In this document: positions 43,690 to 45,554 of the stretch, piece after piece
Layout of the letters: every line of letters begins with the position of its first letter
Numbering within the stretch: the first letter of the stretch is position 1
NCBI GenBank assembly: GCA_022566735.1
Contig: JADFIG010000016.1
Location: 1 to 64,000, forward strand
DNA: 64,000 nt
Reading direction: 5' to 3'
From: Pseudomonadota bacterium
Lineage (GTDB): Bacteria > Pseudomonadota > Gammaproteobacteria > Burkholderiales > Burkholderiaceae_C
The notes under the pieces: generated by a model
What the model was told of the DNA's origin: nothing
The model's input: the letters and a program-made list of their open reading frames with translations, nothing else
Database searches by the model: none
Translations under genes and position numbers: made by a program

Positions 43690-45306
43690 ATGACACCCTC
43701 GATGAAGTCCAAGTTCATGTCGGCCGACGCCGCCGCGGCCCTGATCCGCGATGGCGACACCGTGGCCCTGATGGGCGGCGGCGGCGGCCTGATGGAAGCC
43801 ACCTGCCTGTTCCAGGCCGTGGAGCGCCGCTTCCTGGACACCCGGGCACCGCGCAACCTGACCGTGGTGCACGCCCTGGGCATCGGCGACAAGGGCCACC
43901 GCGGCATGAACTGCTTCGCCCACGAGGGCCTGGTGCGCAAGGTGGTGGGCGGGCACTGGGTGTGGTCGCCGCGCATGCAGCAGCTGGCCCGCGAGGAGAA
44001 GATCGCGGCCTACATCCTGCCCGGCGGGGTGTCGTCGCAGCTGCTGCGCGAGATCGGTGGCGCCCGCCCCGGCCTGATCACGCACGTGGGCCTGGGCACG
44101 GTCTGCGACCCGCGCCACGGCGGCGGGCGCATGAACGCCAGCGCCACCGAGGACCTGGCCGAAGTCATCACCCTGGATGGCCGCGAGTACCTGCGCTACA
44201 AGCCCTACCCCGTGCACGTGGCCCTGGTGCGGGCCTCGGCCGCCGACGAGGACGGCAACATCAGCTTCGAGCACGAGGCCGCCAACCTGGACGCCGCGGC
44301 CATCGCCCTGGCCGCGCGCACCAGTGGGGGCCAGGTCATCGTGCAGGTGAAAGAGCGCCTGCCCCGCGGCGCGCTGAAGGCCCGCGAGGTGCGCATCCCC
44401 GCGGCCTGGGTCACGGCCATCGTGGTGGACCCCGGGCAGCGCACCAGCTACGACATCCCCTTCGACGCCTCGCTCACGGGCGAGCTGACCGGCCCAGAGC
44501 GCCTGGCCATCGACGCCCAGGAGGCCCGCGCGGCCGATGGCGCCGGGGCGGAGCCCTTCAGCGAGCGCCAGGCCGTGGCCCGTCGCGCCGCCTGCGAGCT
44601 CTTCGAAGGCGCGGTGGTGAACTACGGCGTGGGCGTGCCCGACGCGGTGGCCAAGCTGGTGGTGCGCCGCGGCGAGCTGGGCTGCATCCACCAGACCATC
44701 GAGCACGGCACCTACGGCGGCAGCCTGCTCGACGGCGTGCTGTTCGGCTATGCCCGCAACGCCACGGCCATGCTGGACGCCCCCACCCAGTTCGACTTCT
44801 ACGCCGGTGGCGGCCTGGACATCGCCTTCCTCGGCTTCGGCGAGTTCGACGCCCAGGGCAGCGTCAACGTCTCCCGCCTGGGCGGCCTGACGGTGGGCCC
44901 GGGCGGCTTCATCGACATCGCCCAGAACGCGCGCAAGGTGGTGTTTTGCGGCACCTTCTCGGCCAAAGGGGTGCAGCTGCACACCGGCGATGGCGAAATG
45001 CGGGTGGCGCAACAGGGCGCCGTGCGCAAGCTGGTGCAGGCCGTGGAGCAGATCACCTTCAGCGGCCCGCAGGCCTTGGTGCGTGGCCAGCAGGTGCTGT
45101 ATTTGACCGAGCGTGCGAGCTTTCGCCTGACGCCCGAAGGCGTGGAGCTGTTCGAATTGGCCCCGGGCGTGGACCTGCAGCGCGATGTGCTGGACCAGAT
45201 GGGCTTTGCGCCGAAGCTGGCCGCCGAGATCGCCGTGATGCCACGCTCGCATTTCCTGCGGGAAGACGACCGTTTCGGGGCCATGACCGGGCCGATGGCG
45301 CGCTGA
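43690..45306 (+). CDS. Acyl-CoA:carboxylate CoA-transferase (YdiF/acetate CoA-transferase type)
   Basis: A 538-residue fused alpha-beta family I CoA-transferase. The N-terminal half starts [23 protein letters not shown]; the C-terminal half has the glyoxylate-loop region [18 protein letters not shown] and the catalytic Glu338 in [13 protein letters not shown]. It moves CoA between an acyl-CoA and a free acid, presumably activating the substrate of the upstream dehydrogenase. Its last codons (TGPMAR-stop) resemble the units of the 21-bp repeat array that begins at the stop codon, so the array appears to have grown out of this gene's 3' end. Confidence 0.9.
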
Positions 45307-45554
45307 GCTCGGTGCGTGGTGCTCGGAACCCGGCCGATGGCGCTTTGAGCTCGGCCGATGGTGCTCGCAGCTCGGCACGCCGAGCTCCAAGCCTGACCCG
45401 TCGAGCTCCCAACGCCACCGATCGAGCTCAAAGCTCGGCTCACGGAGCTCAAAGCTCGGCGCGCGGAGCTCGGAGCTCCGTTGTCCGAGCTCGGAGCTGC
45501 ATTCACCGAGCTCAAAGCTCGGCGGCCCGAGCCTGGAACTCGGGCAGCGATGCG
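45282..45554. repeat. 21-bp minisatellite, about 12-13 diverged tandem units
   Basis: Units start at 45303, 45324, 45345 and every 21 bp to 45534, with consensus close to CRAGCTCGGCNNNNCGAGCT plus one variable base. The segment 45282-45302, still inside the CoA-transferase gene, aligns as an extra unit (shared CCGATGGCGC). Units are diverged 20-40 percent except for the AGCTCGG and CGAGCT blocks. Several form hairpins, for example AGCTCGGC-AC-GCCGAGCT in the unit at 45366. The period is a multiple of 3, so open frames run through it, but no protein is supported. It lies in the 359-bp gap before katG and may act as a transcript end or protein-binding array. Confidence 0.85.

Follow-up and report, generated by a model that had tools for sequence, protein, structure and literature searches.

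A 21-bp palindrome array in an Aquabacterium genome belongs to a genus-level family of dispersed, helically phased arrays

The window analysed here, a stretch of 64,000 nucleotides from contig JADFIG010000016.1 of a Burkholderiales genome, carries between a CoA-transferase-like gene and katG an array of 21-bp palindromic units, and this array belongs to a genus-level family of dispersed, helically phased 21-bp palindrome arrays. The genus name Aquabacterium was taken from the best match of the CoA-transferase gene, which lies in Aquabacterium sp. nzgw550 (contig JAHFQM010000002.1). Throughout the family the phase of the units is nearly constant, the two arms of a palindrome are mostly of the same class and the half-sites change more slowly than the remaining sequence. 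The reading we favour, to which we give a little less than an even chance, is that the array may be a helically phased, multi-site element bound by a putative DNA-binding protein.

Results and Discussion

The array in the window

Laid out in rows of 21 bp and judged by eye, the repeat-like sequence extends from the last codons of the CoA-transferase gene to a right edge that is approximate (Table 1). A unit-chain model placed 12 consecutive units at exact 21-bp steps between 45296 and 45543 with a score of 139.7, and with 139.4 after retraining without the window's own units. By comparison, the best score among 80 Burkholderiales loci (716 kb) was 14.0 and that of three block shuffles of the window 13.4, while the reversed sequence, which keeps palindromes and is thus not a strict null, reached 14.4 at best. 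The array described in an earlier, sequence-only reading of this DNA is accordingly real. Tandem Repeats Finder split it into pieces (45286-45367, period 42, 85%; 45290-45376, period 21, 70%; 45423-45523, period 21, 73%), because the units are only 70-73% alike. All units of the window array were typed as class A, that is, with at least one class A arm and no class B arm.

Table 1. Features of the window around the array.
Feature	Position	Strand	Basis or remark
CoA-transferase-like gene (FadX-like, below NCBIfam cutoff)	43690..45306	+	last codons overlap the array
Segment without counterpart here in two same-genus genomes	45282..50567		array, katG, thymidine/AMP phosphorylase, PRPP synthetase
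21-bp palindrome array (repeat-like rows)	45286..45558		Tandem Repeats Finder, 21-bp row layout, unit-chain model
Local 42-bp duplication at the left array edge	45286..45367		weakly palindromic units, including the last 21 bp of the CoA-transferase gene; Tandem Repeats Finder and layout
Best-formed half of the array	45422..45543		six units of class A, of which four form 6-7 of 7 pairs
katG, catalase/peroxidase	45666..47840	+	
Thymidine phosphorylase family gene	47897..49468	+	AMP phosphorylase model below its cutoff
Ribose-phosphate pyrophosphokinase family gene (PRPP synthetase)	49495..50472	+	
PurL-like (FGAR-AT) gene, 3' part	50568..52499	-	collinearity with relatives resumes here

The two halves of the array differ. 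Units of the right half pair well (6, 6, 7, 4, 7 and 5 of 7 pairs), those of the left half weakly (3-4 of 7). The array strand folds far better than shuffled sequence (z -6.1). At the left edge, the 42-bp repeat (81% identity) extends into the end of the CoA-transferase gene and covers its final 21 bp (45286-45306), which agree with the unit at 45328-45348 at 18 of 21 positions; the end of the gene does align as a further unit, as had been claimed. Being all class A and weakly palindromic on its left, the window array is atypical of the family, and its unit order matches that of no other array compared (in the best case, 11 of 200 shuffles were equally good). An assembly error is an unlikely source of the array, since arrays recur in several genomes and the flanks in the window are collinear with relatives on both sides; the particular junction found here was seen in one genome only. 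Two further repeats lie nearby, a perfect 13-bp tandem repeat of 2.4 copies at 41069-41099, unrelated to the 21-bp family, and a short C6-A4-G6 inverted repeat at 45600-45615 between array and katG.

A genus-level family of arrays

The DNA of the window array finds similar places elsewhere in its own genome, and the search of the remaining genome that the sequence-only reading had suggested thus showed that the array is not unique to this position. Using R1, a covariance model that spans three units and was derived from 32 blocks (this window supplied two), five array places were found in this genome (contigs C37, C2, C50, C36 and C21) and nine in the relative G011, three of the latter being short or weak (C1:683k with 6 units, C2:521k with 3, and C7:198k). 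The last of these and a candidate at C18:80.7k in this genome were dropped, as the chain model missed both at its threshold. At E<=1e-5, R1 matched 11 of 42 genomes of the genus, this one included; the other 31 gave no match at that threshold, and weaker arrays exist in some of them. Shorter, T-rich variants were seen in G017, G028 and G064, and likewise, with other stems and in some cases 3' of the MSQNL gene described below, at loci of more distant species of the genus (L199-L206, L256, L257 and L266). In a sample of 250 genomes of the bacterial family, in which only 22 candidates were scored per genome and weak members could be missed, R1 matched three, all of the same genus and again including this one. 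Matches in two other families (G046 and G053) did not look like arrays.

Perfect CCGAGC-N5-GCTCGG palindromes are almost confined to the array places (12 of 13 in G011, 9 of 9 in G000 and 6 of 7 in G026), which argues against an ordinary scattered operator. A palindrome scan that is independent of sequence found nothing array-like in the 80 Burkholderiales loci, with a best value of 4.83 compared to 5.17-5.83 in four array loci; its reversed control was uninformative, because reversal keeps palindromes. An origin from phages or plasmids was rejected: three matches of the exact pattern in viral contigs look like single units arisen by chance, and blastn gave no match for one array in a plasmid collection or for the window array in a phage collection. 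A CRISPR array was likewise rejected, as the units are about 50-65% alike with 4-bp spacers, compared to the near-identical repeats and unique spacers of CRISPR. The array was not found described in a literature search that mostly did not extend to subscription journals.

Two palindrome classes in helical phase

The units of the family are built on two palindromes, class A (CGAGC-N5-GCTCG) and class B (GCACC-N5-GGTGC). Full arrays comprise 11-17 units each, and in 20 arrays from four related genomes 244 of 250 unit steps measured exactly 21 bp. Among 270 units, both arms were of class A in 121 and of class B in 39, whereas an A arm faced a B arm in only 4; the remaining 106 had an intermediate arm. 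Restricting the count to one array per locus (140 units) gave 72 A/A, 18 B/B, 2 A with B and 48 with an intermediate arm. A repeat at the coding level was rejected, since substitution rates show no period of three within the 21-bp unit and 43-bp or 22-bp steps change the frame in some arrays.

Probable constraint on half-sites rather than on folding

Related arrays were compared in 11 pairs, two of which joined arrays of different loci; with units under 0.62 identity left out, substitutions per site amounted to 0.102 in stems, 0.279 in loops and 0.242 in spacers. Without the unit filter the corresponding values were 0.138 for cores, 0.369 for loops and 0.298 for spacers in seven pairs, one of which aligned poorly owing to a shift. 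The palindrome cores thus change 2-3 times more slowly than loops and spacers. Compensatory changes made up only 4 of 903 pair comparisons, and pairs that are unpaired in both relatives had remained unchanged in 178 of 206 cases (555 of 697 for those paired in at least one), which together point to recognition of each half-site rather than to folding. Across unlike units, changes on both sides were frequent (79 cells versus 35.5 in shuffles), as is bound to follow from two palindrome classes. In 12 sense-oriented arrays (151 units), whose orientation was set by the preceding gene, the numbers of G-T and A-C mismatches were nearly equal (55 and 69), as expected for double-stranded DNA. A second set of 18 arrays (194 units), of other or ambiguous orientation, among them several of more distant species, had more G-T than A-C mismatches (127 to 77) in sequence that is also G/T-rich.

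REP and BIME elements are thought to terminate transcription or to protect upstream mRNA. By analogy, the arrays might act at the RNA level, as clusters of hairpins in 3' untranslated regions which terminate transcription in both directions or protect the upstream mRNA. Their placement in the four closest genomes suits such a role: 19 of the 22 array rows there lie within 100 bp of a gene 3' end, as called by a simple gene caller trained on this window. In more distant genomes of the genus, this holds for 2 of 15 array rows. The folding of the array strand and the G-T excess in the 18 arrays point the same way, and hairpin clusters are reported as terminators (PMC8355165). Still, we regard an RNA element as rather unlikely, although it is, with the satellite discussed below, one of the two main rivals of the preferred reading. 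No intrinsic terminator, a stem followed by a T run, was found at 45200-45750, and the G-T excess is absent from the 12 sense-oriented arrays. The stems draw on few sequences, compensatory changes are seldom seen, and the near-strict 21-bp phase has no obvious use in RNA. Furthermore, two arrays lie between divergent gene starts (katG/arsR in G009 and the P-type ATPase locus in G026), and in the stretches searched none of the Rfam families scored as high as its gathering threshold; sub-threshold scores, such as that of mir-208 (E 1.4e-6 in L031, on both strands) and weaker ones, were taken as artefacts of symmetry. The complex terminator suggested in the sequence-only reading is not borne out in the form of an intrinsic terminator or of a strand bias, although the role itself might still apply; among the functions proposed there, a binding array fits best, in view of the half-site constraint and the lack of strand bias in the 12 sense-oriented arrays, with the binding itself being putative.

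Higher-order repeats, conserved order and exchanged blocks

Neighbouring B units are rare (2 compared to 14.2 in shuffles, and 1 compared to 6.3 with one array per locus, P 0.004), and B units stand three apart in 27 of 49 intervals, for which shuffling gave a mean of 7.9 and a maximum of 18. In many arrays the units follow an A-A-B order, which constitutes a 63-bp higher-order repeat. Unit order is kept between orthologous arrays of different species. In some pairs it is also common to different loci, as for clpB and RND in G026 (z 9.6) or for XDH in G026 and glcF in G009 (z 9.9), suggesting that blocks have been copied or exchanged.

Ten array alignments contained five internal gaps (22, 1, 22, 42 and 21 bp) per about 459 substitutions, a total summed by hand from array pairs that share genomes and are not independent. 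Four of the five are of unit length within 1 bp; in three (22, 22 and 1 bp) the phase moves by a single base. In 20 intergenic control segments aligned likewise, there were 22 gaps per 661 substitutions, none of them of 21, 22 or 42 bp, so that about 15 gaps would be expected in the arrays (P of 5 or fewer, 0.002); a blastn-based count of intergenic DNA gave 141 gaps per 1149 substitutions. The earlier notion of a slippage-born array agrees with the unit-length gaps, but not with the divergence of the units and the order they keep between species.

It might also be hypothesized that the arrays are a selfish or neutral satellite, in which an old 63-bp A-A-B unit was amplified and spread by recombination between arrays, and in which palindromes and phase are maintained not by use but by mutational processes such as template-switch correction of quasi-palindromes and deletion of whole units. 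The 63-bp period, the blocks common to different loci and the many genomes without a match are consistent with this, as are arrays that differ by whole units: at katG/arsR, G009 and G026 differ in length by exactly 294 bp (14 x 21) between flanks of 98.7% identity on the katG side and 93.8% near the arsR side. We nevertheless consider a satellite maintained in this way unlikely, and marginally more so than an RNA element, as the cores lag behind loops and spacers in substitution rate, the arrays contain fewer gaps than control DNA and mismatched pairs are not quickly corrected. These same observations are in line with the preferred reading of a protein-bound element.

Placement beside variable gene slots

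Alignment showed the window to be collinear with both G011 and G026 up to 45281 and again from the PurL-like gene onwards. At the place of the intervening segment, G011 carries about 1.7 kb with a DUF945 gene. Together, katG and the genes for thymidine/AMP phosphorylase and PRPP synthetase (45666-50472) make up a cassette that separates the CoA-transferase gene from the purL-like gene. In G011 and G026 the CoA-transferase ends in DDRFGALS and the stop codon, with no array behind it. The window katG is 82-87% identical to katG of six members of the genus and 66% identical to that of G011 and G026; no array was found beside katG in the five of those six whose flanks were scanned. Since neither these five katG relatives nor the two CoA-transferase orthologues showed an array, the array lies at a junction that neither flank shows elsewhere in the genomes compared.

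Of the 11 loci compared, six (CoA-transferase, leuA, RND, clpB, P-type ATPase and MSQNL3) have a break in collinearity within about 50 bp of an array edge in at least one genome pair, whereas the PLD, XDH, katG/arsR, MSQNL2 and nirB loci have none. All these loci had been chosen around arrays, and the background rests on a small sample, about 37 kb with a single further gap of more than 1 kb. The variable side carries genes for MmeI-type restriction-modification, HsdM, Fic and AAA-ATPase proteins and, at a distance of 2 kb, a Cas3-like protein. At the P-type ATPase locus (L167, L198 and L216), about 3.9 kb of additional DNA with an MmeI-type restriction-modification gene is present in G011, and G009 has an AAA-ATPase segment missing from G026; each begins at the array edge. 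The arsR/katG gap holds 16 units in G009 (L215, C156 2789-3120), about three by eye in G026 (L235) and none in G011 (L238).

A gene for a 157-residue helical protein (MSQNLIS...; e.g. L174:4666-5139, L177:3800-4273 and L170:4596-5069) is followed at its 3' side by an array at 13 of 30 loci, counted at a threshold of 16 with weakest scores of 17.8, 20.4, 22.5 and 22.5 and gaps of up to about 420 bp. The gene is present in 17 of the 42 genus genomes, and the association may reflect co-duplication. As a candidate binding factor the protein was rejected, as its predicted all-helical fold (pLDDT 84) matches no solved structure; the two copies scanned had no Pfam match.

The breaks raise the possibility that the arrays are sites of recombination or integration, at which cargo genes are inserted or exchanged or arrays recombine with each other. 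The coincidence of breaks and array edges at six loci, the sparse background, the nature of the variable genes and the position of the break in the window, just before the array, speak for it. We judge such a site quite improbable, given the five loci without a break, the array-centred choice of loci and the small background, and since array flanks have no shared terminal sequences and no clear target-site duplication was visible by eye at the one locus with an array-free counterpart. Finally, that replication slippage started from the stop-codon sequence of the CoA-transferase gene itself, as the sequence-only reading had proposed, is highly improbable in spite of the match between the gene's end and a unit within the local 42-bp duplication, because homologous arrays adjoin unrelated genes in this and other genomes and, as the comparison with relatives showed, the orthologous gene ends without an array in both G011 and G026, the collinear DNA stopping short of the repeat.

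Relation to known repeats

The closest known kinds are the BIME/REP elements and the BrickBuilt minisatellite-MITE, and the hallmarks of these that were tested, namely a RAYT transposase and shared ends, were not found here. Like REPs and BIMEs, the arrays consist of extragenic imperfect palindromes in composite arrangement at several loci and near genome-plastic spots; REPs are described as insertion targets for IS elements (PMC1525189). According to PMC2817692, REPs usually exceed 100 copies per genome, compared to 5-9 array places and 7-13 perfect class A sites per genome here. The arrays differ from them in their near-strict 21-bp helical phase and in their two palindrome classes, often ordered A-A-B. 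The RAYT domain (Y1_Tnp, PF01797) was found in none of nine same-genus genomes (5 of 14 control genomes were positive), and the GT(A/G)G head of REPs was not found beside the palindromes by eye on unit layouts and variable spacers. BrickBuilt of Porphyromonas gingivalis, described in the available part of PMC4596501 as a 23-bp minisatellite inside a MITE, has in common with the arrays a tandem unit of comparable length and a spread over intergenic sites of a single taxon. It differs in having leader and tail subunits with inverted-repeat ends, whereas no 10-mer is common to the 80-bp flanks of arrays from 11 loci (8.4 on average are common to random stretches taken from those loci), and its units are not described as phased palindromes in that part of the report.

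Other likenesses are more remote. Plasmid iterons and centromere-like arrays likewise space protein sites by about 20-22 bp on one face of the DNA, but as direct sites. Those of the present arrays are palindromic and occur at several unrelated loci, and a Pfam scan of 20 proteins gave no rep or par family. NtrC operators have the form TGCACC-N5-GGTGCA, which class B units share, except that the latter stand in arrays together with class A units.

A putative nucleoprotein segment at gene ends

Under the preferred reading of a phased binding element, each 21-bp unit would be a two-fold symmetric site, in which a half-site CGAGC or GCACC faces its copy across about 5 bp. Half-sites of alternating orientation would then recur every 10.5 bp or so on one helix face, over about 230-375 bp. 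Most likely, such an element would work through a dimeric DNA-binding protein that coats the array in a cooperative manner. The covered array would form a nucleoprotein segment, mostly at gene ends, and might serve as a local insulator, terminator or organiser, beside which the gain and loss of genes may be tolerated or promoted. The protein, its binding and any effect on transcription or chromosome structure are deduced here from the pattern of the sites. Several observations weigh against this reading: the one-base phase shift at three of the five gaps, the G-T excess in the 18 arrays of other or ambiguous orientation, the atypical make-up of the window array, the scarcity of gene 3' ends beside arrays of more distant genomes, the two arrays between divergent starts, and the 31 genomes of the genus in which R1 gave no match at the threshold used.

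On a bolder and, taken as a whole, unlikely extension, the arrays might represent a new kind of bacterial boundary element: A and B palindromes as putative protein sites on one helix face, arranged in a 63-bp A-A-B higher-order repeat and block-copied between loci, would mark an edge beyond which genes, both defence and metabolic cargo, are swapped. This would parallel the higher-order repeats of satellites that have a dedicated binding protein.

In compact bacterial chromosomes one would not expect to find ordered arrays that resemble satellites. The family displays selection-like constraint on spacing and half-sites, does so without the transposase that goes with REPs, and its arrays often lie at the borders of variable gene slots. 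Should a protein coat the arrays, they would constitute a new class of chromosomal insulator or organiser, and would offer a handle on the gene exchange that recurs at fixed places in these genomes.
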